In this document: positions 149 to 58,313 of the stretch, piece after piece
How the letters are laid out: every line of letters begins with the position of its first letter
Numbering within the stretch: position 1 is the first letter of the stretch
Assembly (NCBI RefSeq): GCF_041146795.1
Contig: NC_135170.1
Coordinates: 4,082,533-4,146,532 of the forward strand
Length of the DNA: 64,000 nt
Source: Maylandia zebra
Taxonomy: Eukaryota > Chordata > Actinopteri > Cichliformes > Cichlidae
Direction of reading: 5' to 3'
The notes under the pieces: model-generated
Databases searched by the model: none
What the model saw: only the letters and a program-made list of their open reading frames with translations
Told to the model about the DNA's origin: nothing
Translations under genes and position numbers: made by a program

Positions 149-212
<64 letters not shown>

Positions 213-287: not shown

Positions 288-2946
288 CTTCCTGCCATAC
301 AGGAGTTCATAGGGAGCGAGGGAAGTAGTTGCATGCTGTGTTGCACGGTAAACTTGAAGCCAATCCAGCACAGTCGCCTTCCATGGTTTCGACTGCTGGA
401 TTGCTGTCTGGATACAGGTGTGGAGAGCACGATGAAACCGTTCGATTGCTCCGTTTGAAGCTGAGTAGTAGACAGATGTTCTGCTGTGGGAGATGCCTCT
501 ATCCTGGAGGAATGAGGTGAACATTACAGAGGTGAACTGTGTACCATTGTCAGTCACGATGTTCTCTGGGTTGCCATGACGACTAAAGACAGATGAGAGA
601 AACTGAATGACATCATCAGTAGTAGCAGAAGGTGAAAAGGCAAGCTCAGGCCATTTGGAGTAGTAGTCAGTCAATGTTATGACATATCTACAAGCAGGTA
701 TAGCAGTATCAAAAGGCCCAACAATGTCAAGACCAAATTTTTTCCACGGTCCATCAGGCAGTGGGACGGGTTGGAGAGGAGCAGGGTTAGTATGTGCAGT
801 TTTGTCATTGGACTGACAGAGGAGGCATGAGGTTATGGCAGACTGAACTTGTGAGTCCATTTTTGGCCACCAGTAGAGGTCTTGTAGTCTTTGTTTTGTG
901 CGCACAATCCCTTGATGACTTTCATGTGCCAGTGCAATCAGTTTAAGTCTCACTGAAAGTGGTGCAATGAGCCTTGAGCCTCTGAGAACATAATCACTTA
1001 GGGTTGAAAGTTCATTACGGATTTTGTAGTAAGGTGCAAGCGTGACATCAAGTGCTTTGATTGAGGCAGGCCAGTCGCTTTGTATTTGTGAACGCAAAGC
1101 AACCAGTTCAGGGCAAGTTGAACAGGCAGAGTCAAAGTCCGCAACAGGAAGAGAGGACATGGCAGCAGAAACTTGGGCTACCATTTCATGATCTGCATCT
1201 GATGTAGGATGGGAAGAAACAGGCAGGGGCAGGCGAGAGAGACAGTCAGCTGTATAGTTCTGAGAACCTGGGCGGTAAATAACATCATAGTCAAAACACA
1301 GGAGGCGGGCAGACCAGCGGGCGATGCGCATTCCAGCCCTATTAATCCCTTTGGTGCTCAGCAGTGTTGTCAGAGCTTGGTGGTCTGTCCGCAGAGTAAA
1401 ACGTCGGCCCCACAAATACGTTCTCCATTTCTCTGCAGCCCACACACAAGCATAAGCTTCTTTTTCAACAGTTGAGTACTTTTGTTCTGTTGCAGACAGT
1501 GTGCGGGAAGCAAACGCCACAGGTTTTTCTGTGGCATCAGGTTGCACTTGAGCAAATACAGCACCAAGCCCATAGTCACTTGCATCAGTAGAGATCACGA
1601 CACGCAAGGCAGGGTCAAACAGTGCCAGGAGTTTTTTTACTTCTTCAAAGCTCGCTTGTGCATCTAAAGTCCATGTGAAGGTGTTCTTGTCATTAGCACA
1701 GGCAGGCATAGGGGCTACAACAGTTGCAAAGTTTGGCAAGAACTTGGAGTACCATGACACCAAGCCCAGGAAGGATCTCAGAGCAACAGCATCAGATGGG
1801 GGAGGGGCTCTCAAAACAGCATCAATATGCTCCTCATCAGGAAGAATGCCATCAGCAGTGACAACATGACCTAGGAAGCGTAGCGATGTCTTCCTAAAAT
1901 GGCATTTGTTTTCGTTAAGCACAAGTCCAGCATCTTTGAGCTTCTGCAGGACAGTGCTAAGGTTTTGGTCATGCTCAGCTGCACTTTTACTGTAGACAAT
2001 AAGGTCATCCAGGTAGTTTTGGACACCTGGGAGGTTTTTAAGAATTTCAGCCATCATTTTCTGAAAAGCTGAGGGGGCAGAGGCCAGTCCATAAGGTACT
2101 CTACAGAATCTGAAGAGTCCATCATGTGTAATGAATGCTGTCAAATCTCTGCTATCTTCATGCAGGGGCAGCTGGTAGTATGCATTTGCAAGATCAATTG
2201 TAGAAAACACTTTTGCACCCTGTAAGCTGGCAAACAATTCATCCACATGTGGTAAGGGGTAGCAATCAGTGATCACAGCTTTGTTTGGTTCACGGAGGTC
2301 TGCACACAGCCTTATTCCACCAGTTTTCCGTCCTGTCACAACAATTGGGGATACCCATGGTGATGCATCAATCCGTTCAATGACACCAGCTTTGAGTAAA
2401 CGATCCAGTTCTGCTGAAACTGAAGCCCTCACAGCAAACGGGAGACGTCGCAGCTTCTGACGCACAGGTTTGACTGTTGGGTCAACTTTCACTTTATGCA
2501 CAAAGGCACGCACACAGCCAATATCTGGGGCAGCAGGGATGCAAGAAGCAGGTGATGGGTTTGTAGACATCACAGAAGCAGTAGGATCAGTACATGGAGG
2601 TAGAACAGTATTGCCTGCAATGCTGACATTCAGCGCTTCCATCAGATCTCTTCCAAGAAGAGGAGTTCCTTTTCTTACAACAAAGAACACAGCTGAGGCA
2701 GATGCATTTCCTCTGCTCACTGTGACTTGCAGGCAGCCTAACACAGGGATTGTTTTCTTTGTGTATGTAACTAGTTGAAGGTCAGGTGGTTTTAGTGGCG
2801 TACCACTGAAGTGCTCTTCGTAGATGTGGTTAGGCAGGATAGAAACTGCAGAACCTGTGTCCACAATCAGTTCAATATCCTTAGCTGATGACGTAGGTGT
2901 GCTCACATTTATGCTGCATTGCAATCCTTTTGATGCATGAGAAGGA

Positions 2947-3690
2947 TCTAGTAAGTAAGTAAGTAAGTAAAATTTATTTATATAGCACTTTTTTAAGACA
3001 AAACGCTGTTACAAAGTGCTTCACAAGAAAACATGTCAAACAAACAATATAGCAACATAAAGAAAGTATAAAAGCATATCAAAAAAGCAATAGTACAATA
3101 TAAATATAAAATAAAACAACATGTTACGCATTAACATTTCCCAAATGCCTGTCTAAACAGATGAGTTTTAAGCTGTTTTTTGAAAGAAGCCATTGTATCG
3201 ATGGTGCGTAGTGGGGGGGGTAAACCATTCCACAGTATAGGAGCCAGGGTTTGAAATGCGTGATCCCCCTTTGTTTTCAGACGAGTCCGTGGGATAGATA
3301 GACGACCGCTATCAGTGGATCTAAGAGTTCGCTTTGGAGAATAGGGCTGGAGAAGCTCCGAGATATAGATGGGGGCCCCACCTTGTAGAGACATAAACGT
3401 AAAGGTGAGGATTTTGAACTTATATCTATACTCAACCGGAAGCCAATGCAGGGATTTTAGTATAGGAGTGATATGGGAAAATTTATTGCTATGGGTCAAA
3501 AGCCTTGCTGCAGCATTCTGAACCGCTTGGAGCCGATTTAGTGAGGCCTTAGATACGCAGGAAAAGAGTGCATTACAATAATCCAGCCGGGAGGAGATAA
3601 AGGCGTGGACAAGCATCTCCAGTTCGGTTGTGGAGACAATAGTCCTGAGTTTGGCAATATTTCTTAAGTGAAAAAATCTGTTAAGTAAAG
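2947..3690 (-). mobile_element. L2-type LINE 3' fragment nested in the Gypsy fossil
   Basis: The minus strand encodes the C-terminal domain that follows the reverse transcriptase in fish L2-like LINEs: a SRLDYCNALFS motif, then LQAVQNAAARLL, then SLHWLPV. The 3' UTR holds a TTTATTTATATAGC motif and the element ends in a (TAAG)n-type repeat near 2950-2968. It is a 5'-truncated insertion in the same orientation as its Gypsy host. The same insertion is at about 49395-50138, so it predates the segmental duplication. The L2 assignment rests on these motifs and the tail only. Confidence 0.8.
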
Positions 3691-4569
3691 GACTGTGAGT
3701 TTTGGTAAATGGACTTCCCGTACATCTCTTGTCTTGGATGAGCAGCAGACACGAGCAAAATGTCCAATTTTATGACACAGTTTACTAGTAGCTTTGGCAG
3801 CAGGACACTGACGAAAGTTGGCTAAATGACTGTTTGAACCACATCTAAAACAGTTCTTAGATGTTTTTGTTGCATGAGATGGCTTTGCAGGGTGAGCATT
3901 GTACTTATGTTTCCTCTGCATGGAGTGCGAGTGAGACTGCACAGCTTGGACTGGAGTACTGCTGTCTGCAGCTATGGATTTAGCTTGTTGGACTGCAGAT
4001 TCCATTTGTGTTGCCAGTGTAACAGCTTTATCTAGTGTCAAATCAGGTTCAAGCAAGAGGCTTTCTCTTATGCTGGGGCTAGACACATGTTCAACTAGCT
4101 GATCACGGATCATTTCTTCTGTCCTGTCATCAAACTCACATTTAGAAGCAAGGTCACGCAAGCTGGCCACATACTGGATAACAGTCTCATGTGAAGCTTG
4201 TGTTCGCTGTCTGAAAGCATGTCTTTCCACAACAACATTTACCTTGGGTGAAAAGTATTGTTCTAGGGCAGTAACAGCAGAGGCAAAAGTGTCACCTGTA
4301 TTTGGCAGTGAGTAGAAAATCCTTTGTCCCTCAGTTCCTAAGCAGTGAAGTAAAGTAGCTCTTCTTCATGCTTCAGGCCAAGCATTCCCTGTTGCATTGA
4401 TCACAAGCAAATAATTGTTGAACATACGCATCCACATGTTGAATGGCAAAAGAGGGTCTCCAGGGCAAGGCAAAAACATCGGTGGCGGATGGACGTTTGC
4501 AGTCATGATGACTCGGCAAAAAAACTCAAAGCAGAGAAAAAAAACACGCAGGGTTACTCGTCGCCAAAA

Positions 4570-4801
4570 TGTAATGGTGGGCGGTAATAACCAGTCCTCA
4601 TGAAGAACAGTGCTCTTTAATGAATTCAGCACAGACTAACATCCAAGGGATAGCAGTGACACACATCGGCTATCAGCTAGCCACCTAACTGTATTCTATC
4701 TCTTTCTATTCTCTAAACCTTTTCCGGCTCCGCTTTACCTCTTATTTTGCGACACCACCCTCTAGTGGTGCAATATGATATAAACATTACGGAACACAAC
4801 A
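4570..4801 (-). repeat. Gypsy 5' LTR (232 bp)
   Basis: It starts TGTAATGG and ends CACAACA on the plus strand (TG..CA). It appears identical by eye to the LTRs at 45443-45674 and 51018-51249. CTCAT follows at 4802-4806. Confidence 0.93.
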
Positions 4802-4806
4802 CTCAT

Positions 4807-5075
4807 CTTTCTGAAGCACTTTGCAAACCACACCAAGGTAAGCCATGAAAAAAAGTAATGGAATTGCGATGCTGGTGCACAGCTACATTTTTTCAGCTTC
4901 ATTGTTATGTTCAAAGTTGGTGCAAGAGTTGTAGGTTATAATGCCCACTGAGCCAATGAGGCCAAACTCAAGGAAGACCAACCAAAATTAATGAAATATT
5001 CAGTTGCAGAAAATTCCATAATTTGTCTTTTTTGGGGGGTTGGAATATGTTCAAAAGCTAGATTTCTGCATTCTG

Positions 5076-5127
<52 letters not shown>

Positions 5128-5455
5128 CTACATAAATGGCTCTAAGTGCATTCATGTGTTGAATAAACAAAGATTACATGTTAATGTTTTGTCAGTACCC
5201 TTATTTCATTGTGTTACATTTCACCCCAGGATATGTTACAACTAACCCAGACTATGGGGTTAATTGTAACATTTCACTCTTCGTGTTTGAGACCATACCA
5301 TGCAATGGGTAATTGTGCTGCAGAGAAAGTAGCTGCACTATTTAATAGCAGAGACATGTAAATACTTTGCATTACATTTTGAATCCACTACCTTAAAAGA
5401 GCTCCAATTTACAGACAGAAATGTCAAAGATGTGACAACTATCCCCGGTCTCCCC
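4807..5455 (+). mobile_element. pogo-type DNA transposon P1, right part
   Basis: This is the right portion of the pogo-like element seen whole at 20643-21997. It begins where the Gypsy fossil interrupts the DDE-domain reading frame (frame encodes KHFANHTK) and ends at 5455 with the inverted terminal repeat ACTATCCCCGGTCTCCCC followed by TA. The left part lies outside the window beyond the Gypsy insertion. It contains a CA microsatellite and no intact gene. Confidence 0.8.
5077..5126. repeat. (CA)n microsatellite, 50 bp
   Basis: A pure CA tract inside pogo P1. The equivalent tracts are about 100 bp at 21569-21668 and 16 bp at 51525-51540, so the locus is hypervariable among the three copies. 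Confidence 0.95.
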
Positions 5456-5755
5456 TACAGATGTATTACTCTACCGCTCTTTTATGTTTTTTCAACATTT
5501 TTGGCTCAGTTTTGCAGGTTAGTGTTTTGCTGTGTGTCTGAGCTGTTTTGGGAAATTAATTAAAAAACTTTAGTAACTCAAAACTCTGAAGACATTTAAG
5601 CAGACAAAAGAAGTGAAATAAAATACACACGCGTTATTAAAGGTTTCCAAATCAACAAAGGGTCTCAGTAAATGTTCCAGACAAATGTGCTCCACTGCAA
5701 CAAGAAGCCGAATTCTTTACAACACACAAGTTTTCAGTGAAATTCTTTTAGTGGC

Positions 5756-5761
5756 TTTATT
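5756..5761 (-). promoter_or_regulatory. Candidate polyadenylation signal of dnase1 copy A
   Basis: AATAAA on the minus strand about 125 bp downstream of the dnase1 stop codon. It is conserved at 22289-22294 and 52170-52175 in the other two copies. Confidence 0.5.
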
Positions 5762-5885
5762 GTGCATTTGCATTTCATGAAGCTGTGGCTGACAGTAGTC
5801 CCCAACTGAATGATCATTGTGCTGGCTGCAGATTGAGCACGATGTGTGGAAAGCTTGTGGAAGTCACGGTTCAAGCAACGTGAGC

Positions 5886-8845
5886 CTAACCGCTCAGCTT
5901 CACCTCCACGGGGAAGTGGTCGCTGACAGCCAACGCCTGAGAGACAGAGAAACCGTTCTTTTAGTGGCTCACAGTTTGTGCTGCAGACGGCTTCAGTTTC
6001 CACAGGTTTCTTTCCAGTGCTGAAAAACTCAACGTGCCTGCATGGTAATGCCATCACTACAGTATACACTGCATTATGATTTTGTTTGCATCTCTGTGGT
6101 CGTTACTACAGCCACTGCTTTACAAAGTTGCTCGATTTTCTGTAGCTCAAAGCTGATATTAAAAAAGCAAAAGTGCTTTAAAACTGCATGATTTCTGATG
6201 GGGCGACTGCTTTGCCCTTTGTGTAGAATGCCTCTCTTCTGATTGGAGCTCAGTAAACATTTTGCTGACGAGTCTATGGTCTCAGTTGCAGTGAATACAG
6301 CATTATGTTAACTTTTTATATTGACGTTTCCATTAGTGTCAGCGGGGAATGAGGCAGGTTGTGCTTTTTAGTTCAAATGAATTCTTACAGAGATAAGGAT
6401 TGAAATTCATCTGTTACCAGATCTTGTTTGAGATTCAGGTCCGTCATGTAGTTATACACCTTCGCACTATCTTTCACCACTCCTCTCATCATGTCCGCAG
6501 TGACCACAATCCTGCAAACACAGAAAGATGATTAGAGTTTAGAGTTTGCGTGCACACATCAGAACGACCTGCCACAATCTGTCTACCTGTCGTAAGGGCA
6601 GACAGTTTGCGACACGGTAGTGTCGGCCGCATCAGTGATCAGCCAATGGAAAGTCTTGTCAGTGAAGATGCGGATCTGCTGCCAGTCAGACCCGGACACA
6701 TAACTACAGCCTGCGTTGAAGTCACCCAGCAGCACGATGTCCCGCAGGGATAGTAGTGTGAGTCGCATTTACCGAATGTGTGTTTTTCCACCAAATAAAT
6801 GATTTTTACTTGTAGGCTGTAAATACATCATTGTTCCAGCGAGCGCGGACATCTGCCACCACGTCATAGAGAGCATTTAGCTCCCGAACAGCTGATTCTG
6901 GGGAGGTGTGCTGAGGGATCAGAGTAAAGTCTCTCACAGCTACAGAAGAGAAGGGAACGAAGGAGTGTTGACAGTGACGGAGGCGCTTACACCGCATGAG
7001 AATGATAAAGGACTAGTGACTAACATGTCCCAGGAACTACCACGCACAAATGTTTGAATGAGGATCCACATCATTATCAGTGTGATGCAGAAACAGCTGT
7101 ATAACTCGAGCCACAGCACCTACCAGTGTGTTTGGAGGAGAACATTACGACAAACGGCTCCCTGCTAAAGGCGTCTTGTCCAGTTTCCTCCGGGCCGTCG
7201 TCATAGGTGTAGCTTTTTGCCACCGATACCAGCGCCTCCCTGTGGAGAAAATCACCACCTTTTCATTTGCTGCCAGTGTGTACTTCATTTCTAAACATGT
7301 CCAGTTGCTTCTCGGGACAAATTTATTGTAGTTCTGCTTTTCCCCTTTTTTTAAATCACTTCTTCTGAATTCTGAGTGTGTATAAGATGTATGTTTATGC
7401 CAGAACAAAGACGGAGGATTTGCCGTTAAATTACTTCAAACATGCCTCAAACACTACAAACATGCTGGAAATATAAATTTTTAATCAAGTTGTTTTGAAT
7501 GGTTATTTGAGAAACTTATGGGAGGTTCTTTAACCCTCTGAGGTCTAAGTGATGATGATCCAACACCAATCCTGACTTTAACCCCGGGCAACGTGAACAA
7601 GTCATTTTTATTTTTGTTAAATTGTTTGGCTTTAAGAAACAAAGAAAACAATCAAACTATTCACATTCTGCCATGAAAAAGACTTTTTCCCTTTCTACAA
7701 AATACATATTTAGAGCAAGAACTAAAAATGCTTTTTACACGGCATCACTGCAACGAACCATGTTTTGTTGCAAACAGCCGCCCCTCCCTGAGCCTGACTC
7801 TGCCGGAGGTTTCTTCCTGTCAAAAGGGAGTTTTTCCTTCCCACTGTTGCCAAAGTGCTGCTCATAGGGGTCATTTGATTGTTGGGTTTTTCTCTGTATG
7901 TGTTATTGTAGGGTCTACCTGACAGTATAAAGCGCCTTGAGGCGACTCTTGTTGTGATTTGGCGCTGTGTAAATAAAATTGAACTGAATAAATATCATTT
8001 CACTGTGTGTAGAGTAGAGACTTATTTTTTTCATCGTGGTGCACCTGTAAAGGAAGAGATATCGCTCTTTATAGGTGCTCGCACCGAGAGGCTCGCTGAC
8101 GATGTATTTGTACTGAGGAGAATCTCTGGGGGGAAACAAACACACACTTTTATGTTTCCATACGTTTGCATTTCATGCTCAGTGTTACTCTGAATGTTCC
8201 ATGTTCGGTGTGTGGACTCACTTGTTGACGTACTCCATGAGTTTTTGGGTTGCTGAGAGATCACTGTCTCTGACCTCTTGGATCAGAATGACGTCATAGC
8301 GTTGGACAATCTGCAAAACACACATAAAAAATGAAAATGAATCAGCTGATTGTCCATCTTGCAACATCACGTTTGTTTATATTTTACCTTGCACGAAAAA
8401 ATTCATGTGTTAAGCTTTAGATTGTAAAGGCAACGCTACAGCTGTTGCACATCCAGTTATTTCATTGATCATTCCTTAAGCATAGAGGTGGGAATATTCT
8501 GGGAATATTCAGGTTTACTTCTGCAACAGGCCAAATCATCCAAAGCATTTCTCAAAATTCAGTTCAAACTATTTCAAAACGCACACACAAGATAACACTT
8601 CTGGATTGGTTTTGAAAGCACTCTGACCCAAATTGCATTACAAATGGGTGGATGTAAACATTTTGTACAAACTGTCATATCTACCAAAGAGGGAAAAGTC
8701 CCAGACCTTGGTAATGATGTTCATCAGAGTGGTGTTGGAGGCTTTGGTGTCTCCGAAGGATTTGATGTTAAAGGCTCCCAGCAGCAGCGAGTTAGAGAGA
8801 TGCAGCAAGGTCAGAAAAAGCCCCAAAGTGCCCACCAAATGCATC
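5886..8845 (-). CDS. dnase1: Deoxyribonuclease I, copy A (exon 7 acceptor mutated)
   Basis: Secreted Ca/Mg-dependent endonuclease of the DNase I family. Coding exons read right to left: 8845-8707 (ATG at 8844), 8310-8222, 8125-8045, 7239-7124, 6939-6827, 6741-6587, 6511-6418, 5936-5886. Joined they give 278 residues, the usual family length. Residues 1-21 form a signal peptide. Family catalytic or metal residues are present: Glu58 (IQEVRDS), His152 (PQHTSP), Asp186/Asn188 (GDFNAGCSY), Asp230 (CPYDR), His269 (SDHFPVEV). Cys191 and Cys227 can form the conserved disulfide; the small first loop lacks its cysteine pair (GPEETG). Exon phases agree throughout. The intron before exon 7 ends GG (6743-6742) instead of AG, unlike copy B. 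Skipping this 155-bp exon would shift the frame and lose most catalytic residues, so this copy may be a pseudogene unless a cryptic site is used. Confidence 0.88.
7765..7990 (+). mobile_element. LINE/SINE 3'-end relic in dnase1 intron, copy A
   Basis: It has the common teleost retroposon 3' end: a GGTTTCTTCCTGTCAAAAGG motif, then AAAGCGCCTTGAGGCGACT, then TTTGGCGCTGTGTAAATAAA, ending in a TTGAACTGAAT tail. It lies in the intron between the exons at 8125-8045 and 7239-7124. Only the 3' end is present and no ORF is visible. The family is not resolved. It is shared by all three units and so predates the duplication. Confidence 0.7.
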
Positions 8846-9536
8846 CTACACCAAACAGGTCACATGTTAAAAATGACTTAGAAATCACATGAAACACTGA
8901 CGCTTACAAATGATTTCATATTTATTTTACACGTATGTATGCAAATGACTTCCCAGGTTATCAGGTTAATAATTTCCAGTTCCTGTGCATTAAAAACCGA
9001 TTTGCAGGCTGAAGTAAGGCCTTTCCTTTCACTCCATATTTCTCTGTCATAAAGTCCAGTTTAACATGGAGGTTAGTCCAAAACAAAGCGGCTCATGTTC
9101 CACCATCTGCTGAGAGCTCATGACATGAGAGTGAGAGACCAAACACCTGCTCCTCTGGATGTATTTTTGGCAGTTTATCTAACATGCTATTTAGCGCGTC
9201 GCTATTTGCAGCATGTTGCAAGGCTTGGTAAAATATTATCCTTTTAGGACAATATATTACTCTGTTGCCCTGGTTACACCGTCCTGGAGCTGTTGTGGAA
9301 GACCAAAGGTTGCCAAATATGGAAACAGAGAGCTGCATTTATACTGTGATGGTTTGCATGTGCTGCTGAAATGTGTTTGTAAACGCACAATTACTGCAGG
9401 AAAAATGCACAAAAGTTACTGTAATGCTGCTGTAGCCTGAAACATCCACTCTAAACAAGAAACTGGCTCACAGTATTGCACCGAATACAGCTCAGATGTT
9501 TTTGTAGCGAGTGAGAGGTCCATACCTGCTCCTGTA

Positions 9537-9640
9537 TGTCTGCACGGTGGAGACGCCTGAACTCGTGAATCTTCTGAAAGCTCCTGAAAAGCTTCTGAGC
9601 AGAATGGCGACCAGTGTCTCTTTTGAGGTTTTTATCTACC
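9537..9640 (-). other. dnase1: Probable 5' UTR exon and promoter side of dnase1, copy A
   Basis: On the minus strand a splice-donor-like GAGCAG|GTATGG lies at 9537/9536. The exon carrying the start codon has an acceptor (GTGTAG|G) just 1 bp before its ATG, so a separate non-coding first exon is required. This stretch is the best candidate. The transcription start is not visible and the right end is a guess. No TATA box was recognised. Confidence 0.45.
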
Positions 9641-11840
9641 TGCAGGCGCATGTGACTGCAGGGTGCTGGGGAGGAGTACAGAGAAAAGGTGTGTTGTGGA
9701 TGGGGTACAGATTTCAGGCTTTCAGGTTCTCACACCCCAAGATTGCAGTGCAACAAGGATAACGTTGCAACCTCAAATTCTTTTCTGCTCGTCATACAAT
9801 AAAAACACTTCAGCATTGTTTTAACTTGCTGTTGTCCTGTTTGGCATTTGTGTGAAGTTCTGTCACACTTCACAAATGAACTCAGAATGAGTGTCGCAGT
9901 GTTGGGATGACCTTAAACTTTGGCAAAATCCTTACGGAAACTGAAGAAATTCCTTCAAGCAGTTTGAAAGATGCCTTGTTCATGAGAGCAGGGACAGACA
10001 AAACATAATATCTACTCTAGGTCTGCTCCAGCAGAGACACGTAACAGTCATTAGCAATAACAACAGTAATATTGCTACAGCCTTGTTAAACTATCATCTG
10101 TCCCAGTGTTATATCTTGAAATCAGACCTTCAAAAACCTTCCGATAGGCTGATACAACACAAGTATGCCACCGTCTCCACCTTATTGGTCAGAAAGTTTT
10201 TCTTCCCAGTTGTAGCTGAACAAACAGAACCCATTCACTTACAATGCATTCAAGCTTGACAACACAATAATACACTTTAGTGAAGTTTCATAAAAGTGCT
10301 CATACTTACAGCATGTTACAGTTGTCATGTTACTGATGAGGGTTAAGCTCTATGTTTTTAACATTGTAATCAGATCTGCCAGGTCGGTGCTTAGACATAT
10401 ACCGGTGTCCACTACACCCAGCCTCCTGACTCTTTCTTTACTGCCAGCTGTCGAGAATCTGATGCCTCAGCAAATACTGAATAAATTTCGGTGCCACCGC
10501 TGCTGTCCACATTCATGCTCCCGTCAGGGTAAACCATAGTTTCCCAAACTTTCCATGTATTTTAAACTTGAGAATCCAAGTGAAGCCAAGATGTTTGCTG
10601 ACTATTAGTCTTGTTTATGAAGTAGACAAACGAATTTTGTGTAGAAAGGATGAGGGCTCAGTGTGCGCGTGAGGAAAGCTTGCACGAGAGGAAATCTCCA
10701 CTGGGACATGGAAAACTACCACATACTGACCTAAAGAGCAACGAGTACAGAGGGAGAAACAGCAGGAAGTGCAGCTTAACCACAGATTTGTAGCCACTCT
10801 TGCAGTTTAAACCAAAGACCAACAGAGAGTTGCACTAGGGCCAAAGTAGCAGGATCATTTTCTGTATTTGACTTTTGGTTATATGCACATGTGACCTGTT
10901 GGGGGGTGCAGATGTGCAGTATCTGCACCTTATATTTTTCTCTAACATCCATAAACATGCACACTCTGGTAAAACTAATTAAAGTTAAATACTTCTTTGT
11001 AAGATGTTTAATAAAGAATGATAAAATGGAAAAGTGCCATGTGTGTAGCTAAAAATAAGCCCCAGAGCGAACGGCAAGGCTGCAGTCTGGGAACCGGCGG
11101 GGCGGTCACCGCTGGGATGTGCTTATCAGAGTGTGGAAAGTTGTGGACTTTAAAGTGTTGAACTTTGATGGATAACCAGTCGTGTCTCAGATCAAACGTG
11201 CAGAATAAAATCTTTGCCATAACTGTTGGCATGAGAGTGATGCTCATTATCCCTTCTGGCAACATTTTGAATAGCACCATCTGGTCAAGCAAGGCCATGT
11301 GACACACTGAGCTCGTGATACTGGTTTTGGGCGGCAGTGGTACGGACACTACTGGACTGAAACTGGTTTGAGAGTCTGCTAAAACGACAGCATGTAAGGA
11401 CACAATGACTGTGTTTTAGTAAGTGTTTACCTGTTTTACTAAATGTACTTAAGAACTGCTGAGACCGTTTATAAACCTGTGTTTAAATTTCAAGAAAAGA
11501 ATGATGCATTTGCATTTCTGTATTAATAGTTGGAACCGAGGAGGAAATATGAATATGAATGCAGCTGCATCGTTTTTTGCATTCATGATGTCGTTTTATT
11601 CAAATCAGTTTGTGTTAAATGCCCCAGACAACAAATCTGTTGTCGGTTTAATTTCAGAAAGGATGGCGCCACATCATGTGATCATTACAGCATATGTACA
11701 GATCTAAATGCATTTCATGTCCTATTATAGTTTTATTCACTTCAGATTAGCATCAAAGTTGTAGCCGCGTCTTTGCCCATTATGAGCCATAAAGTTGGAC
11801 ACTGTTGGAGACTGTTCTGCTGGTGATAAATGAAACGAGA
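9641..11840. other. Intergenic stretch between dnase1 and zinc-finger gene, unit A
   Basis: No gene, RNA or mobile element was recognised. A 131-codon minus-strand open frame at 11008-11403 is kept in all three units, but it has no recognisable domain and the units are nearly identical throughout, so its conservation means little. Confidence 0.5.
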
Positions 11841-11857
11841 CGATCGTTTAAAAGGAT

Positions 11858-11863
11858 TTTATT
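11858..11863 (-). promoter_or_regulatory. Candidate polyadenylation signal of the zinc-finger gene, copy A
   Basis: AATAAA on the minus strand about 430 bp past the zinc-finger stop codon and just beyond the 11-bp minisatellite. If used, the minisatellite is transcribed in the 3' UTR. Confidence 0.4.
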
Positions 11864-11896
11864 TTGAAATCTAACACCCATGTAGAGCTAACATTG

Positions 11897-11973
11897 ATCG
11901 TAATAACATCGTAATAACATCGTAATAACATCGTAATAACATCGTAATAACATCGTAATAACATCGTAATAAC
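11897..11973. repeat. 11-bp minisatellite, 7 copies
   Basis: Perfect tandem array of the unit ATCGTAATAAC. Units B and C each have 11 repeats (35146-35266, 58314-58434). It lies in the presumed 3' UTR of the zinc-finger gene. Confidence 0.95.
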
Positions 11974-12289
11974 ATCTTTACAGTTTGTGTAAACCCAACA
12001 GAAACCATGTTGTCCCAAAACGCTGCGTTTGTGTCCCATATGTAACACCGTGTATTATCCAACTTATTTCACATGGTTTAACTTGAACTTTAAAAACTAC
12101 AATAAAGTTTTGCTGTATTACCAGTAACAAATCTTTTATATACACATTAGCTTGTTTAAAAAAACTGACTGAATTACCTCTAAACTGGTTCTAGGCTTTG
12201 TCACACTGGTCGCACTGGTGCGTGTCCATGGTCAGTAAGCGTAGAGTTGACTTAAGCTCGAGTTTGTGTAAACTGAACTGCTGCACCGA

Positions 12290-13099
12290 TCACGTATCAG
12301 CGTCTGTTGGCGTGTTTCTGGGGTCGCTGGCTGGAGGCTTTCCCAGAAAGGTCACATGCGGCGCCAGCTTGTGTGTCGCCAAGCTCGACTTCAAAGCAAA
12401 AGCCCTCCCACACTGGTCACACTTGTGTGCTTTAACTCCACTGTGGACCAGTTTATGTCTCTTTAAGTTGCTCTGATGATTAAAAGCCTTTCCGCACTCC
12501 TCACATGTGTGGGGTTTTTCTCCGCTGTGGACCATCTCATGGATTTTTAAGTAGCTCATCTGAGCAAAAGCCTTCCCACACTGGCTACATGCGTATGGTT
12601 TGACTCCTCTGTGCAGGCGCTGATGAGTTCTCAAGTTGCCCATCAAACTAAATGTCTTTCCGCACTCCTCACATGTGTGGGGTTTTTCTCCGCTGTGGAC
12701 CATCTCATGGATTTTTAAGTATCTCATCTGAGTAAAAGCCTTCTCACACTGGCTACATGCGTATGGTTTGACTCCTCTGTGTAGGCGCTGATGAGTTCTC
12801 AAGTTGCCCATCAAACTAAATGTCTTTCCACACTGGTGGCACATGTGTGGTTTGACGCCGCTGTGGCTGAGGTGATGTGTTTTTAAGTTGCCTTTCCGAT
12901 TAAAAGTCTTTCCACACTGGTCACAACTGAAGGGCTTTTCCCCACTGTGGATGCGCTGGTGTCTTCTGAGGTGACACGGGGCATGAAACTTCTTGTTACA
13001 CTGATCACACCTGTAGTGCTCAAGTAAGTTTGCACTTGAGTGAGCATCTTCAGCCAACTGAGAGCACTGAGGTGTTGGGCTCTCTTTGGCGTCTTGTTC
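12290..13099 (-). CDS. C2H2 zinc-finger protein, terminal exon, copy A (8 fingers)
   Basis: Probable nuclear DNA-binding protein. The minus-strand exon starts at 13099 after a good acceptor (TTTGTTGCTGTAG) and reads through an acidic lead (EQDAKESPTP) into eight C-x2-C...H-x3/4-H fingers. They are joined by standard linkers (HSGEKP, HRGVKP, HSGVKP), and the stop is at 12290. There is no in-frame ATG at the head of the exon, so an upstream exon must supply the start; it was not identified. Fingers 3-4 and 5-6 are near-duplicates, showing growth by two-finger modules. No KRAB, SCAN or BTB domain is visible. The last finger has H-x4-H. Differences from copies B and C fall mainly at helix contact positions. 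The identity of the family member is unknown. Confidence 0.85.
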   Translation of the reverse strand, partial: EQDAKESPTPQCSQLAEDAHSSANLLEHYRCDQCNKKFHAPCHLRRHQRIHSGEKPFSCDQCGKTFNRKGNLKTHHLSHSGVKPHMCHQCGKTFSLMGNLRTHQRLHRGVKPYACSQCEKAFTQMRYLKIHEMVHSGEKPHTCEECGKTFSLMGNLRTHQRLHRGVKPYACSQCGKAFAQMSYLKIHEMVHSGEKPHTCEECGKAFNHQSNLKRHKLVHSGVKAHKCDQCGRAFALKSSLATHKLAPHVTFLGKPPASDPRNTPTDADT

Positions 13100-15235
13100 C
13101 TACAGCAACAAAGACACAGGCAGGGAGTCAGAAGCTTAATAAGTGTTTGAGTTAAATCTTGTTTTGTCGTGCCGGCCTCTCTGCTTCGATAAGAAACATG
13201 TTTGTTGGATGATGCCCATAATAGTAACCTGTTGTGTTGTAAATTGTTTGGATGCGTTTTGGAAAAGAAAGACTGTATTATTGCATAAAATACATTTAAA
13301 CAAGTGCATCGCTGATTGCATCTTGTGGACATCGGTTCTACCAGCTGATTGCCCTGCTCAGTCTTTACGCCCGACCCAACGAGGGACAATCAAATGCAGA
13401 GGGGACAGTGCGACTTCACCCGTGCACTTGCACCTCTTGCACACAGTCCTCATTTACAAAGTGCTCTGCAAATCACCCCGTCCCTGTTACAGTGCAGAGA
13501 GCCAAAAATGAACCATTTAGTCCTTGGTGTAAGACCAGGGGTGTCGAACTCCAGGCCTCGAGGGCCGGTGTCCTGCAGGTTTTAGATCTCACCCTGGGTC
13601 AGCACACCTGAATCAATTGATTAGTTCGTTACCAGGAGAACTGGAAGTCATTTAACCATTTAAATCAGCTGTGTTGGAAATAAGGAAAGGTCTAAGAGGT
13701 TGAAGCCTTCGTCTTTCCATTTACTATTTTCTTTTCTTAACATGCATTTTGTTTCTCATGTTCTGGAAAACTGTAAATAATTACTAAAGGGTGGTAGTTA
13801 ACAATAATCATAATGATATAATGACAATAAATGATGATCATTCATGAAAGTTGTACTGATAGACTTTTCACGTTTCCTAAAAGCAGCTCGGCCTTGGTTT
13901 GCACGGCACTTCCAGATGTGTTTATAAACTACGAACAATTTCACGTATAAAAGTCTGTAAAATGTTCGGACTCATGATTTATAAAAACGATGTTTTTCTC
14001 ACCGTGTGTGAAGAAAACATTTTCTTCTTTCCAAGATGGCCGACTACGTTCCTCCGTCAGACTGCTCGACCCACCAACACCTGCCAGGAAAGAGCTTTAT
14101 TAGGCTCCGGAGCCGAAATGCACATTAAAGTCACTTTACATCCAGATGACTTAGACCGTCCTAAGATAATAAACTTTTAGCCTGGTCTAGATTAAACTGA
14201 GCTGATGGCAAGACGGAGGATCAGAGGACTTGAAGCTTTAAATAATCCCTCAAGGAGACAGGTCTAACCTTTCCTTTGAAATATCTCTGAGGTAGCATGG
14301 ACAACATACACGTGCAGATGAGAAATGACACCCTGATTCAATCATTCCCTCTCTGTAAACACTTTAACTGGGAAGCCAAGCTAAAGGTTAAATGATCAGC
14401 GGCTGTAGGTTTAGCTGTGCTCGTATGCCCGGACAATACAAATATATAAATAAAGAACTGCACACAAACACAATTACACTACTTGATCTGTTACAATCGA
14501 GCGACATTACTTGTCAGCATCTGGAATCATGGAACTCTTTGGTCACGGTGAAGGAACAGTGTGCAGGGCTGTTTTTAAAATGAGGTTTTTCACCAAGCAT
14601 CCTGATGGGCTCTTCCCAAGAGTTAGTGGACAGATAGTTGGAGGTCATGTTCCCAACAAGCAGCAACTGGTGCCGAGGATGAAAGGAACCATGAATGTGC
14701 TCAAAGCTAGATTGCGAAACCGCGATATCAGAAACACATCCTGCATGTGCTGAACTTGCTTTCTAGCAAAGCACCCTGGTTTGCAGTGTCCCAGGTGTAG
14801 GCCAGCACTGAGGATTGTTCTCCAGTCACTGTACACACAGTTTAAGGGAGGACAGCAGTTCCTACTTTGAAGGTAAACCTTAAATGATCAGCAGCCATGA
14901 GTTTAGTTGTGCTCGTACAAGTTATTGTCTCCAGTGTCTCTGCGGGTCCCTAACACTCCCTCACAAACACACCTGAGCTGGGAACATACCTGAGGGAGAG
15001 CAGCAGATGACAGCATGCAGGAGACAACAAACTAATCTAAACATATAAAACAACTCCAACCAACATCAGCTTGGTGGTTACCTTTGGAGGAGCCCAGCCC
15101 ATGAGCTGTGCTGTGATGACTTATGGTGAACAGGTGTGCCAACAACTAAGAGCCGAGACAGAGCCTCTTAAAGCTGTAGGACAAAAAACAGCACGTCCAG
15201 AGCACCTGAAGGCCAGAAGGTGGCAGCAGCAAACG
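13100..15235. other. Zinc-finger upstream region, unit A
   Basis: It should hold the missing 5' exon or exons of the zinc-finger gene on the minus strand. A candidate short frame containing VKTEQGNQ lies near 13310-13390, but its splice sites are unconvincing. A CCAAGATGGCCGAC motif at about 14031-14044 resembles a YY1-type core-promoter element and is kept in all units. Apart from the hAT MITE listed separately, nothing else was recognised. Confidence 0.35.
13538..13680. mobile_element. hAT-type MITE relic, unit A
   Basis: It starts CCAGGGGTGTCGAACTCCAG and continues with a GAGGGCCGGTGTCCTGCAGG motif and CAGCACACCTGAATCAATTG, the familiar teleost non-autonomous hAT repeat. The right end is degenerate. 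It is also in unit C (about 60000-60142) and missing from unit B through a local deletion. Confidence 0.65.
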
Positions 15236-15433
15236 GGTGTCAGGTACAATCTTCAGCTTCCATAGTATCTACAGATCATACACTCCTCCCTTTGCTCAGT
15301 GTTTTCACCTTCAGCACATAAAGGTGAACTTCAACCACACCAACAGACTGGAATATGTTCACCCACACAGACCTGGACCAGTACGCCTCATCTGTACTGG
15401 ATTACATCTCCAAAACCACAGACAGTGTCACCA

Positions 15434-15665
15434 CCTGACAGTGGGCAGGGATAGCTCAGTAGGTAGAGTGGTGGCACCATGATCGGAAGGTCGGTGGTTC
15501 GACTCCACTGAACGGCTACCCTGAGGTACCCCTGAGCAAGGTACCGTCCCTACACACTGCTCCCCGGGCGCTGCATTGGTGGCTGCCCACTGCTTCACTG
15601 GGTGAATGGGTTAAATGCAGAGGAACTATATCCCTACGGGGACTAACATGCACACTTTACTTTAC
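15434..15665 (+). mobile_element. tRNA-derived SINE inside LINE fragment, unit A
   Basis: It begins GGCAGGGATAGCTCAGTAGG (A box TAGCTCAGTAGGTAGAG) with B box GGTTCGACTCC. The body reads CTGCTCCCCGGGCGCTGC, then GGGTGAATGGGTTAAATGC, and the tail is CCCTACGGGGACTAA. This is a standard fish tRNA SINE. It is inserted in the LINE between codons for DSVTT and KRITM and is shared by all three units. Confidence 0.8.
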
Positions 15666-16444
15666 ACCCAGAAACGGATCACCATGTACCCCAACCAGAA
15701 GCCTTGGATGAACCGGGATCTTTGTCTCTTCCTGAAGGCCCGCAACACCGCCTTTAGGTCAGGAGATGCACACGCCTACAGCACAGCCAGGGCTAATCTA
15801 AAGAAGGGCATCAAAAAAGCCAAACACCATTACAAAAAGAAGGTAGAAGAACACTTCTCCAACTCCAACCCCCGACGCATGTGGCAAGGACTCCAGACCA
15901 TCACAGACTACAGGACCACCAAACCCTCCCCCGCATCCTCTGATGTCTCCTTCCTCAATGAGCTCAACAACTTTTATGCTCGTTTTGAGCGAGGGAACCC
16001 CACAATCACAACCAAAGCAGACCACCAACCTATGACTCTCTCCCCCACCGATGTAGGAGTGGTGCTGAGCAGGATCAGTGTCCACAAGGCTGCAGGTCCT
16101 GATGGCATCCCCGGGCCTGTTCTCAGAGCGTGTTCTGGGGAGCTTGCAGGAGTGCTGACAGACATATTCAATCTGTCCTTGGCCCACGCTGTGGTACCGG
16201 CCTGCTTCAAATCCACCTCCATCGTCCCGATACCCAAAAACTCCAACCCATCTTGCCTCAATGATTACCGCCCAGTAGCACTCACCCCCATCATCACTAA
16301 GTGCTTAGAGCAGCTGGTCCTAGCACACTTCAAATCCTGTCTCCCCCCCACCCTGGACCCCCACCAATTCGCATACCGCCAGAACAGGAGCACAGAGGAT
16401 GCAGTCTCCATCGCACTGCACTCTGTCCTCTCACACCTGGACAA

Positions 16445-17002
16445 TGTTACGAGTTCAAATATTGGGGATGGAGACAAGAGGAAAAACCACAATAACAACA
16501 CTGGTCCTGCCGGGTTGAGTCAAACGATGATTTTAATGATCACACGCGTGGGAGATGGACACCGTACGCAGACAGCATCAGATCTCAAAATGGTGGAGCA
16601 TTGCTCAAACTCTTATAGCCTCTGGTGCCTCCACCTTATCATAAAAAGCCTAAACATTCACATGCTTTCTCTCACACGGCGCCTAAGCTACGACCTTGGC
16701 TCCCTGTTTATCTGCTCCTGCTGAGATGGGGCAGAAAACTCCAGCATGTTCTGTTCTCTTCTAATCAGACAAATAAGGCGATGACTTTCTGCGAACAGTA
16801 TTTCTTATAACTCAGCAGTATAATGCATCATAAAACAATATCATTCATCCACAATAAATCAGCAGTCTAAGGTAATGCAAACTAATGCAAGAGTTATCAC
16901 CTTCTTCTAATTCAGGAGAATAATGCAAACTAAAACTACATAATAATTCACAATCTTTAATTAGGGGTCTAACATGGCATAAAATAATATTATAATCTCA
17001 CA
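16445..17002. mobile_element. Probable solo LTR, unit A only (fossil)
   Basis: A 558-bp insertion that starts TGTTACGAG and ends TCTCACA (TG..CA) and contains an AATAAA near 16854. It is flanked by a 4-bp duplication, ACAA. The same site in unit B (about 42535) is uninterrupted, giving a clean empty allele. No internal retroviral genes are present, so a solo LTR left by LTR-LTR recombination is the simplest reading. The family is not identified. Confidence 0.6.
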
Positions 17003-17331
17003 ACAACAACAACACCTACGCCAGAATGCTGTTTATAGACTTCAGTTCAGCATTCAATACAATCCACCCCTCACAACTCATCAGGACACTGACAGACCTG
17101 GGCATCAGCTCCCTCATCTGCAAATGGTTACTGGACTTCCTGACCAACCGCCCCCAACATGTCCGGCTGGATAACCGCTGCTCATCTACCATCACAATGA
17201 ACACCGGTGTACCACAAGGCTGTGTGATGAGCCCTTTCCTCTACTCCCTCTTCACCCACGACTGCAGACCTGCTGATGGTTCCAACACCATCATTAAGTT
17301 TGCAGATGACATCACGGTGATTGGCCTCATC

Positions 17332-17398
17332 AGTGCTTTGAGCGCTCAGATGAGTAGAAACGCGCTACATAAGAACCAGTCCATTTACCATTTGGGTA
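17332..17398 (+). mobile_element. SINE 3' tail fragment, unit A
   Basis: AGTGCTTTGAGCGCTCAGAT through AACCAGTCCATTTACCATT matches the 3' tail of the SINE at 32655-32917. Only the tail is present, joined directly to the truncated LINE reverse transcriptase. The same join is in unit B. Confidence 0.7.
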
Positions 17399-17786
17399 AT
17401 AAAATTGCAGGTAACATTTCCAAGGCAGGTAGGAAAAAAATGAGCTGCTATCAGTGTATGTTTGTTTTAAGGTGAGGTGCCACGAACCCGCATGTAGGGA
17501 GATGTAACCTCGTACCTCAGAAGTGTCGATATGGGTGTATTTCCATCTGTACAGCAGTATTTAGTACATCCTGGTACTTGGCAGGATGTGCAGGAGGCAG
17601 AGAAAGAGCATAAGCTTTCAGCACCTGTTAGAAATGTCACTTTCCCACATAAGAAATAAAAGGTGCTCCACAATAGTGCTGCAATTGAATATATTTTGCA
17701 ATGAATTGAAGCCCATGTCAGTATTCATAGAAGAAATTGTATATGAATGCACAGCTTCCTTACATGTGCATTTGTTTCATTTGCAG

Positions 17787-17953
17787 ATCACGCCAGACAG
17801 CTCACAAAGTCCATGATGAGGAAGCCAACCATAGACAAGCTGGCGGCTAACAGAGAGGCTGATGTCAATAACTTTGTCAAGTTCATCACCAAGGACTCTA
17901 TTCAGAAGTCCCTGGGGATGTATCTGGAGATGCTTAAGAGAAGAAAGGCTTAG
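17787..17953 (+). CDS. 3' terminal exon of an unrecognised gene, unit A
   Basis: A strong acceptor (TTTGTTTCATTTGCAG) at 17786 is followed by an open frame of 54 full codons to a TAG at 17951-17953. The segment is basic and helical in look (MMRKPTIDKLAANREAD, then KFITKDSIQKSLGMYLEM, ending LKRRKA). AATAAA follows at 18071-18076. It looks like a real last exon, but the gene was not recognised and no upstream exon was found. The LINE/SINE cluster would lie in its last intron. Position in the unit, strand and sequence are the same in unit B (43319-43485); in unit C it would lie beyond the hAT insertion, outside the window. Confidence 0.5.
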
Positions 17954-18070
17954 AGAGGGGAAACATGTTTGCACACTTTGTAGCACCAGCTACAGATGTG
18001 ATCTGACATCAGGCAGTGAGCAGTCTACATGTTTGGGGGATAAAACCCAGCATTTACCCCTCAAGGTGTT

Positions 18071-18076
18071 AATAAA
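18071..18076 (+). promoter_or_regulatory. Polyadenylation signal after the unrecognised terminal exon
   Basis: AATAAA 118 bp after the stop codon, in the context TTAATAAAAACAC. It is conserved in unit B at 43603-43608. Confidence 0.5.
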
Positions 18077-18426
18077 AACACTCGAGGTTAGGGTGTGACT
18101 TTTTGTTTTGGTTTGAAGAGCCGTACACTCGGGCAACCTGCCGAGCCTTCTCCATCACTCAGCATTACCTGCAGTATGCTTACGCGAGCAAACTGCTAAT
18201 TGTTGCAAAAGAGTCTCACATATGAAGGACTAACAGCAAATCTGACCTTTAGTGCATCTAAATGTGGCAAAGCCTTTGTCATCTCTAACAAATGTTTGGT
18301 TTTTACTGTGAAATATCCAAATAAATGTCTGGATTCATACATTAAATGGATTAAAGCGTGTGGTTCTCATTCATTATCTCTGTAACTCAGACGTCTCTAC
18401 ATTCAAATGACAGTGGAGAATGTTAA

Positions 18427-19811
18427 GAGGCCCTGGGACCATTTTTGTACATTTTAGTTTTTCAGTTACAAGCCATTTGCACTGTGTTGAATGGAATATA
18501 GCCAAATTCTCTAAAAAAAAGTTTGGCATAATTTCATTTCAAAATTCAAGTCTGACTTCCTTAAATTAGCTTCAGTGGCTAAGCTAACAATACACATCCT
18601 CTTAGAGCCCTAGGGACCATTTTTGACCCATTGACTTCCATTATAAACGCTATTTTTCACTGCAGAATTATTACCGTTAATGTCTTGGTGATTACTTATG
18701 TTTCCGTTTCGTTTTGGTCTATGAGCCTTAGAGTTGTAATTTTTTTATTTGTCCACCGGGTGGCGCCCTTGCTCCACATTTGATCCCTGCTGGAAAACAG
18801 CGGGCTGCTTGGACAGACCTGCGGGAAATGAAGCCTCATTTCCGGCGTGCAGCAGCGGCTTCGCCCGCTGATCGGGCGGGACCATTTTCGGTCCCTAGGA
18901 CCGTTAGAGGGTGCTTTTTTTTTTTTAGTCAACAGGAAATGACGTATTTGTTGTCACGTGGTATCGGACGTGTGGGCTGGAAAAAGGAGTCCCCGGTGAT
19001 CGTGCCCCGGTCATCGTCGCGACTTACCCTGGGAAGATGCACTTATTTCGGCCTAGAGGAGAAGCATTTGCCACCTGGAGACCATTTTCTGGTCCTGAAA
19101 AAAATAATAAAAGGCGATCAAAATGAATGTTGGTGCCAATCTTTAGTCCATCTAAAGGCCTAATTATAATAACAATTGAATATTACCTCAAATGTTTTTT
19201 TTGGAAAATATTCAAGTTTTATGTTTTTTGGGGTAAAAAAAGCAGTGCGCTCATGTGACGAAACCGGGATATAAAGGGTTAAAATCCGCGAAATGTAATT
19301 AAAACTTGACATGAATATTTCAAGGAGAAGTAGGTCTAAAAGATTGGCTAATTTAAAGTGGAATAAAATATTAATATATAAATTTTTTATAGCACTTTTT
19401 TGGGCGTGGTCGATTAGGACCGATAGTGTGTGCATTTTATGAAATGCGCTCCTGCAAAAAAAATAAAAGGCGATCAAAATGAATGTTGGTGCCAATCTTT
19501 GGTCCATCTAAAGGCCTAATTATAATAACAAACAAATATTACTTCAAATGTTTTATTTGGAAAATATTTAGTTTTTTGGGGCTAAAAAAACAGGACGCTC
19601 ATGTAATAAAACTGGGATTTAAAGGGTTAAAACAACGAAAATCGAATTAAAACTTTATATGAATATTTCAGGGAGAAGTAGTTTTAAAAGACTGACCAAT
19701 TTAAAGTGGAAAAAAATATGAATATATAATCTTTTTATTGCACTTTTGGGGCGGGACCATTTTTGGTCCCCAGGGCTCTAAAGGGATGCATTTTTAAGGG
19801 TCAGCCAGGAG
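18427..19811. mobile_element. TTAA-flanked insertion, piggyBac-like non-autonomous element, unit A only
   Basis: A 1385-bp insertion bounded by TTAA on both sides (18423-18426 and 19812-19815). Unit B has a single TTAA at the same point (43954-43957). Near the ends are inverted copies of an AGAGCCCTGGGGACCATTTT-type motif (left AGAGGCCCTGGGACCATTTT), repeated inside at about 18603 and 18880. TTAA duplication and precise loss are hallmarks of piggyBac elements. No transposase frame is visible, so it would depend on another copy. The extreme ends do not align well as terminal inverted repeats, which keeps the family call tentative. Confidence 0.6.
19111..19800. repeat. Two diverged 356-bp direct repeats inside the TTAA element
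   Basis: The segment starting AAGGCGATCAAAATGAATG at 19111 recurs at 19467, a period of 356 bp. Matching stretches include GTTGGTGCCAATCTTT and AAAGGCCTAATTATAATAAC. The copies differ by scattered substitutions and small indels, so the repeat is old relative to the segmental duplication. Confidence 0.8.
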
Positions 19812-19815
19812 TTAA

Positions 19816-20640
19816 AAATTCAGCGGACAACCAAATCAAAATGAATCTTGCATTCTTATAACAAGGAGCATTTTTCATTCTTTGTATGTTTGTGTTTTGG
19901 ACAATTGAATCAATATACGACACTTCAAAAGGACCTGAGTGTCAGCGCAACACAATCGGCTAAACTTCAGGTGTGCAGTGTCTCCACACTTTTCACTGTC
20001 ACGTCCTGTGTGTGACAGACATGAATGACCTCTGCTGTGGTGCTCCCTGTTTTCTTTGAGCACTACATTTACACATTTAAGAGTATTACCCTCAAATGTG
20101 TTTGGATTTGTCAATGTGTGAGTCGTCTACTAAGCCTAAAGCTACAAGTCACTAATGTGACTCCTGGAAAAGTAAATGTTCTTTCATGTAAAGAGATGAA
20201 ATCAGCACGTGTATTCACTTTAATATTACATCCTCGGGGGGGAGGCTAAGTATTTTGCAGCAGCTTGGTATTGAACTGCAAACCTTCCAATTAGTAGAAC
20301 TGAACTACAGCAACCCCAACTCAACTGTTCAGCCAGGACAAGCAGTGCTTGTCTAGTCAGTTATACCAAAGCATAAGTGATGTGCTTCTACATCACTGCC
20401 ATCTTGAGGCTGCAGTCAGCTATCGTCTCTCCAAGCACACTTCTCTTGGACGCTATTAGAAACTCTAGTGTCTCTATTTCCCAGGCGTCTTTAGCTTTTT
20501 GTATGCAGACAACCTGATTTTCCATTTCAGTGTTTAAAAATCACAGGTTAACATATGTGGTGAACACATTTCAGCTTTACAGGAGTAACTGAAGATGACT
20601 GAAAATAATCTTTAATGAATACATTGTTTCTTCTTTTGTG
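19816..20640. other. Non-coding stretch before pogo P2
   Basis: No gene or named repeat was recognised. The sequence is nearly identical to 43958-44783 in unit B. Confidence 0.5.
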
Positions 20641-21293
20641 TAGGGGAGACCGGGGATAGTTGTAACGTGGGTCAGTTGTAACACTTCCAGTTTCTCCAAT
20701 CAGGGCTAAGTTTCAAATGATGTGACTCATCCTGTGCATGCCCAACTCAGTTCTGCTATCACATGTGAAAAATCAGCACATTTTGTCAAACACAGACAAT
20801 TTAACACAAAAAAAGTAATTTGTATGCCAAAAAGTACGTTTTTCTACTTTATTTCAATTTCTAATAGCATTATCTGCTTTGCAGTTAAACTCATCAAACT
20901 TAAATTGTGTTATTTGTATGTCTATGGGGATATATTCTGTGTAGGTCTTTAGTGCTAATGTTTTAGCCGTTGGCTGTAATGTTAGCTAGTTCATGGCTAT
21001 AGGAGTCTGGGTCAGTTGTAACAGCTACAGTCGGGGTCAGTTGTAACAATAACGCAGATGTTACAACTTACCACACTATTACTTTAACTTATATTAAACA
21101 AGTTGGGGCAACGACATCAGCAGAGAGAGGTTCACTGGTCGCATTTGTATATGCGGTTAATGCCATTGGCAACACAATTCCTCCACTGTTTGTGTTCCCA
21201 CACATACATTATGCAGACCACTGTGTCAGAGATGGACCAGTAGGAAGCACTGGTAGTGGAAATAAATCAGGATGGGTGCAAGAAACAGATTTC

Positions 21294-21298
21294 CTCAT
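21294..21298. other. Empty target site of the Gypsy insertion
   Basis: CTCAT occurs once here in an uninterrupted DDE-domain reading frame. At 45438-45442 and 51250-51254 the same five bases flank the 5.8-kb Gypsy fossil as a target duplication. Confidence 0.93.
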
Positions 21299-21567
21299 CT
21301 TTCTGAAGCACTTTGCAAACCACACCAAGGTAAGCCATGATAAAAAGTAATGGAATTGCGATGCTGGTGCACAGCTACATTTTTTCAGCTTCATTGTTAT
21401 GTTCAAAGTTGGTGCAAGAGTTGTAGGTTATAATGCCCACTGAGCCAATGAGGCCAAACTCAAGGAAGACCAACCAAAATTAATGAAATATTCAGTTGCA
21501 GAAAATTCCATAATTTGTCTTTTTTGGGGGGTTGGAATATGTTCAAAAGCTAGATTTCTGCATTCTG

Positions 21568-21568
<1 letters not shown>

Positions 21569-21661
<93 letters not shown>

Positions 21662-29748: not shown

Positions 29749-29754
29749 ATATCA

Positions 29755-46612: not shown

Positions 46613-46660
<48 letters not shown>

Positions 46661-58310: not shown

Positions 58311-58313
58311 TTG

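Follow-up and report, generated by a model that had tools for sequence, protein, structure and literature searches.

What keeps the recognition helices of neighboring zinc-finger genes distinct when the DNA around them is almost the same? The question is raised by C2H2 zinc-finger exons within a 64,000-nucleotide stretch of the Maylandia zebra genome (hereafter, the window; contig NC_135170.1, positions 4,082,533–4,146,532), which an earlier note on the sequence had described as nearly identical copies differing mainly at DNA-contact positions.

A tandem cluster of zinc-finger exons

The earlier note had counted three exons, which are indeed present on the minus strand of the window, but the full set is six. 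Searching the 962-Mb assembly (63 contigs) with the exon that we call c3 returned 244 matches overall (several per exon), including a tandem array of six close copies (a, b, c1, c2, c3 and f) that follow one another on the minus strand of NC_135170.1 at ~4.048, 4.072, 4.095, 4.118, 4.141 and 4.165 Mb, respectively. Copies a, b and f come from sequence stretches adjoining the window, and their units were mapped there. The genome contains many other zinc-finger exons (on C2, C3, C9 and C33), and among the matches listed none outside the cluster exceeded 58% protein identity to c3. Viral contigs yielded one weak relative only (L001, 28% identity).

Each copy sits in a unit of ~23 kb, with three units inside the window and six in the cluster, and every unit has an intact zinc-finger exon. 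When the window was compared with itself, positions 5078–21298 paired with 21620–45442, with large insertions between, and the flank of the c1 unit (5111–15945) was collinear with that of the c3 unit (51525–62405). Insertions of large size differ between unit copies; one in the c2 unit, absent from the c1 and c3 units, holds a LINE-type frame of 977 amino acids with a reverse transcriptase match (29701–32634). An LTR-type retroelement whose long frame is Pol-like occupies 1–5092 and 46465–51540; aligned over 5092 columns, its two copies show 2 mismatches and one gap. Scanning two pieces of it separately gave RVT_1 and RNase H matches. An 11-bp tandem repeat, ATCGTAATAAC, lies 3′ of the gene (11896–11976, and homologous sites), and its longest exact run varies from 4 to 11 copies across the six units.

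Because the start of the open frame coincides exactly with a good predicted splice acceptor, we read it as a terminal exon; the frame start in all six copies was located by the acceptor sequence. Exon c1 (12290–13099, minus strand) encodes 269 amino acids and eight fingers, of which seven are canonical and the eighth is degenerate, and its predicted acceptor AG (13100–13101, phase 0) follows a polypyrimidine tract. Exon c2 (35526–36218, minus strand; predicted acceptor AG at 36219–36220) encodes 230 amino acids and six fingers, and exon c3 (58752–59561, minus strand; predicted acceptor AG at 59562–59563) again encodes 269 amino acids and eight fingers. The 60 bases upstream of the predicted acceptor are identical in c1, c2 and c3. 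All six copies retain an open frame with no stop codon or frameshift within any array, and all six show a 28-residue finger period, with eight fingers in a, c1, c3 and f and six in b and c2. By their fingers they fall into four array types: I (a and c1), II (b and c2), III (c3) and IV (f). The Pfam domains PF00096 and PF13465 matched 5–7 stretches in each window copy, and the best solved-structure match, ZNF568, covers the finger region only. A strict donor search of 13100–21600 found no upstream exon, nothing in the reading frames of 13100–15700 was recognizable by eye as a 5′ exon, and a scan of the zinc-finger exon alone gave no KRAB match. The six predicted genes could be unexpressed.

Exon c1 has a two-finger internal repeat of 168 bp (12512–12847, minus strand), in which fingers 3–4 (12680–12847) are repeated as fingers 5–6 (12512–12679). 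Finger pairs 3/5 and 4/6 are the only near-copies within the array, and fingers 1, 2, 7 and 8 are distinct. In b and c2, two fingers (168 bp) are missing. Their junction may lie in fingers 3/5, as suggested by a synonymous finger-3 marker and by the best breakpoint against c3, or in fingers 4/6, where the best breakpoint against c1 falls. The C termini vary as well: b and c2 (window 35570–35600) and f (~4164.8 kb) have distinct 7-bp deletions at the stop codon, each of which shifts the frame into one and the same extended tail, CSSSVYTNSSLSQPYTY, bar one preceding residue; a, c1 and c3 have no such tail. A further finger remnant, HQCDQCDKA*, lies past the stop codon (window 12180–12290), which suggests that the array may once have been longer.

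Changes at the recognition helices

The helix strings that the earlier note had quoted for c1, c2 and c3 are all present (for example, NRKGN/TWKGN/TRKSN in finger 2), as is the variation that it listed at positions −2, −1, 2, 3 and 6, to which +1 and +5 must be added. Its comparison of finger 4 needs a qualification: the strings are there, but because c2 is missing the 168 bp, the 'finger 4' of that copy could instead correspond to finger 6 or to a fusion of 4 and 6. Variation lies mainly in the helices, as proposed, but not exclusively, with at least seven off-helix finger codons varying among the six copies (counted over codons 29–246; codon 247 varies too). No linker residue or zinc ligand varies in fingers 1–7 of the six copies, in agreement with the earlier description.

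Between c1 and c3, 19 codons differ, comprising 18 amino-acid changes and 1 synonymous change, and 13 of the 18 amino-acid changes fall at helix positions −2 to 6. Some differences between copies span two or three adjacent bases. The usual helix targets are −1, 3 and 6, and these positions account for 8 of the 19 helix codons that vary among the six copies. The single position most often varied is +2, with 5 of 19; it varies in five of the eight fingers, in four of them through a GGC/AGC change (12512–13015, c1 fingers 1–6, and homologues).

With flanks ~99.5% or more identical and units ~23 kb long, one might suspect that the mosaic and some of the copies arose during assembly, through collapse or mis-phasing of tandem repeats or haplotypes. 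We give such an artefact only a slight chance: the copies differ in large insertions and in finger number, every frame is open, and the differences concentrate in helix codons, which is unlike assembly error.

We counted events across the six copies and found 20 replacement events at 156 helix sites, 8 at 483 other replacement sites and 6 at 149 synonymous sites, compared with 66 at 8459 flank sites. The synonymous count splits two-base codons in favor of synonymous steps, and whole-codon synonymous changes number 4. Helix replacements exceeded synonymous changes (p = 0.0048, with small synonymous counts of 4–6), other replacements (p = 1e-7) and flank changes (p = 3e-17; odds ratio 18.7, a ~16-fold rate). 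The excess over synonymous changes was also seen for replacements at −1, 2, 3 and 6 (p = 0.0006). Among the window copies alone, the comparison of helix replacements with synonymous changes gave p = 0.0015 for c1–c3, 0.084 for c1–c2 and 0.13 for c2–c3.

The earlier note had called for a codon-based comparison of contact and non-contact sites. We fitted our own two-class codon model of the GY94 type (F3x4 frequencies) on the tree ((a,c1),(b,c2),(c3,f)), which assumes a single tree, an assumption violated by exchange between copies. The estimate of omega was 8.1 for helix positions −2 to 6 and 0.83 for the other codons, and fixing the helix omega at 1 was rejected with a likelihood-ratio statistic of 23.2 (p = 1.4e-6). 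Restricting the first class to −1, 2, 3 and 6 gave an omega of 11.1, and restricting it to −1, 3 and 6 gave 9.0. The helix omega was 8.4 after dropping two codons with two-base changes, and 5.4 (p = 0.0008) when fingers 4 and 6 were dropped too. Two other trees gave a helix omega of 11.6 with a worse likelihood; because their likelihoods were identical, we take both to have collapsed to one star-like tree and count them once. Random sets of 64 codons gave likelihood-ratio statistics of 0.1–6.9, smaller than 23.2 in six of six draws. The exon as a whole is raised, which brought two of the six to nominal p < 0.05, and the random draws, though few, are therefore a fairer yardstick than the chi-square distribution. 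The helix omega exceeded 1 in all reruns, bearing out the suggestion of diversifying selection at contact positions, which we regard as well supported in this cluster.

A second pair of zinc-finger exons, L006 and L009 on C3, which differ at 9 of 639 upstream positions, was also compared. Over 13 fingers paired gap-free, which may not all be orthologous, replacements numbered 42 at 237 helix sites and 29 at 634 finger-framework sites, and synonymous changes 27 at 218 sites. Helix replacements exceeded framework replacements (p = 3e-9) but not, at a significant level, synonymous changes (p = 0.073), and the changed helix positions were mainly −1, 3 and 6. We discarded another count for this pair (p = 0.014), which took in 97 pre-finger codons, much of them probably intron. 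The pair repeats the island pattern described below without proving an omega above 1. Another pair, L007 and L008, is 86.7% identical.

A divergence island and exchange between copies

The changed helices lie within a ~0.7-kb island of divergence that takes in fingers 2–8, the C-terminal end and a 3′ edge (12201–12905 in c1, with counterparts at 35495–36024 in c2 and 58663–59367 in c3). Outside it, in flanks that are counted here with finger 1 and the exon's 5′ portion, divergence is 0.16–0.53% in all 15 copy pairs; inside it, divergence is 2.4–4.0% in 13 of the 15. The remaining two are the same-type pairs, at 0.14–0.28% (2/705 for a–c1 and 1/698 for b–c2); BLAST-based island counts for b and c2 are approximate, some bases of the two missing fingers having been placed twice. 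We therefore took site counts from a mafft alignment of c1 10116–13463, in which 39 island columns vary (as opposed to 40 by BLAST), compared with 27 in the remaining 2.6 kb. Windows of the same size outside the island reach 11 variable columns at most. For c1 and c3, 16 differences over about 10,127 flank bases contrast with 26 over 705 in the island, and helix replacements exceed flank changes with p = 1.9e-18.

The DNA around the helices, which the earlier note had called nearly identical, is so in the flanks but not just 3′ of the stop codon. Past the c1 and c3 stop, the island edge at 12212–12245, adjoining the finger remnant, holds six variable bases and includes a 3-base change in c3; two of the six (12240 and 12245) are coding in the longer-tail copies. 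Counting synonymous and 3′ noncoding changes together, silent events in the island number 10–12 at 238 sites, more than the 66 at 8459 in the flank (p = 4e-5 to 1e-6) and fewer than helix replacements (p = 0.0017–0.0054). The earlier note had held that synonymous and flanking differences at a similar density would speak against selection, and this is partly what we see, in that island silent sites and the 3′ noncoding edge exceed the far flanks.

This raised silent divergence means that selection on point changes alone cannot account for the island. In the codon model, branch lengths put the neutral c1–c3 distance of the exon at ~0.040 per codon, about eightfold the per-base flank distance. 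Taken together, the silent rate and the model attribute the excess to an older or less homogenized island and, on top of that, a further omega of ~8 at the helices. With six copies of one genome, older divergence spared from conversion and fast recent change may both fit. GC-biased conversion, which we set aside by reasoning only, should lift synonymous changes along with replacements.

The same figures bear on the idea that the helices are under relaxed constraint and drifting toward pseudogenes rather than under positive selection. A degenerate eighth finger and a finger remnant past the stop would fit such decay, but relaxation cannot exceed the neutral rate, and helix replacement stands ~16-fold above the flank rate and above local silent sites; nor do any of the six arrays contain a stop or frameshift. 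We find this explanation hardly credible.

Relationships among the six copies disagree between flank and exon. The closest flanks are those of c1 and c3, despite their island differences, while a and c1, nearly identical in the island, differ at 33 of 10,129 flank bases, about twice the c1–c3 figure. Columns in which a matches c1 and b matches c2 account for 24 of the 26 gap-free variable columns of the island, compared with 7 of the 25 of the near flank (p = 2e-6). Copy f carries fingers 2 and 6 as in c3 and finger 7 as in a and c1. At gap-free informative sites of c1 10116–13463, four-gamete conflicts affected 9 of the 91 island site pairs and 14 of the 36 near-flank pairs. The closest conflict was 20 bp apart (12455/12475), and the minimum number of recombination events (Rm) was three in the island and six over the aligned 3.3 kb. 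These gap-free counts replace BLAST-based ones (32/276; Rm of 5) affected by the double-placed bases. Recurrent mutation could account for some of the incompatible pairs. Sequence exchange between copies is thus supported.

The earlier note had also raised conversion from finger to finger, of which we saw no sign in three marked tracts of c3 (20–24 bases, with 1–2 mismatches allowed, in a search that skips very common words). For two of these there was no other match in the assembly, and the third, in finger 4, matched only the neighboring copy f. The exchange supported by the data is therefore between copies rather than between fingers. The same search tells against importation of the island by ectopic gene conversion from distant zinc-finger genes, a scheme needing no selection at this locus. 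Potential donors are plentiful, as the 244 matches to c3 attest, and the adjacent-base changes look templated. However, donors no closer than the outside matches listed, at 58% protein identity or less, would be expected to bring many synonymous differences, whereas the exon has 4 whole-codon ones, and we consider such importation very improbable.

A stronger competitor holds that the duplications are very recent and that fast positive selection acted on point mutations, the flanks being alike through youth with no homogenization. Consistent with this, the island divergence of the same-type pairs a–c1 and b–c2 is no higher than that of the flank, synonymous changes are few and the search for the three marked tracts turned up no donor outside the cluster. 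It does not, however, explain why local silent sites exceed the flank, why c1 and c3 are closest in their flanks yet far apart in the island with a and c1 showing the reverse, or why some changes span two or three adjacent bases. We think it an unlikely account of the cluster.

We consider it probable instead that the four array types are kept apart by diversifying selection on contact residues, with conversion or unequal exchange homogenizing the rest. The six poly-C2H2 genes, which encode predicted sequence-specific DNA-binding proteins, form a young tandem cluster. On this reading, diversifying selection would favor changes at DNA-facing helix positions and thereby turn the copies toward different DNA targets. 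Conversion or unequal exchange among the units would keep the remainder alike and reshuffle variants, and the finger exon, with its four array types, would stand out as a divergent island because selection acts against the loss of distinct helix sets. This supposes that the island owes its persistence to selection, that the six genes yield proteins differing in the DNA they bind, and that the driver may be a DNA target that itself changes, for instance a mobile element. More tentatively, the helices might serve as interchangeable recognition cassettes, with short tracts shuffling single helices and selection keeping at least four arrays per chromosome; if so, new DNA specificities would arise from recombined existing helices plus new mutation.

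The cluster among known zinc-finger systems

Clustered, young and diversifying C2H2 arrays in a terminal exon are familiar from mammalian KRAB zinc-finger genes. The cluster resembles them in its clustered young arrays, although here we have the finger exon only, with no KRAB match in it. Fast change at contact residues is also a feature of the PRDM9 zinc-finger array, and the cluster shares it. Unlike PRDM9, whose array is built of near-identical, minisatellite-like fingers, it has near-copies only in finger pairs 3/5 and 4/6, and the gene here is multicopy.

Positive selection at contact residues is established in poly-zinc-finger expansions (Emerson and Thomas, 2009; PMC2604467), where a table includes D. 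rerio and T. rubripes sets that were significant. Those expansions have in common with the cluster C2H2 paralogues, a helix omega above 1 and changes in finger number. Compared with them, the units here are very young, as their flank divergence indicates, +2 is the most varied position, and exchange in the flanks is visible. Cyprinid FiNZ genes likewise show positive selection at base-contacting residues, their knock-down derepresses elements and an arms race with transposable elements has been proposed for them (Wells et al., 2023; PMC10547256). They share with the cluster membership of a fish zinc-finger family and selection at contact residues, but FiNZ genes are defined by an N-terminal domain and the cluster is known from its finger exon alone.

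Divergence peaks that selection maintains in the face of conversion have a precedent in the human opsins, ~24 kb apart; the review that describes them (PMC3924837) treats red/green opsins and RHCE/RHD as duplicates with a selected divergence peak under gene conversion, and such a peak is discussed for copepod GOT1 (PMC3728101). All share with our cluster low flank divergence, a peak over the functional site and exchange between copies. Their peaks cover a few residues in a gene pair, whereas here the peak spans a modular DNA-binding array in six copies.

The cluster is thus a striking instance of an otherwise ordinary type of system, and a clear, very young further case of a poly-zinc-finger cluster selected at contact residues. 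It is an unusually clean and recent one, in which the flanks provide an internal neutral yardstick beside a selected DNA-reading exon, and it allows joint measurement of diversifying selection and conversion at a single cluster. Sister species could tie its diversification to a particular DNA target.
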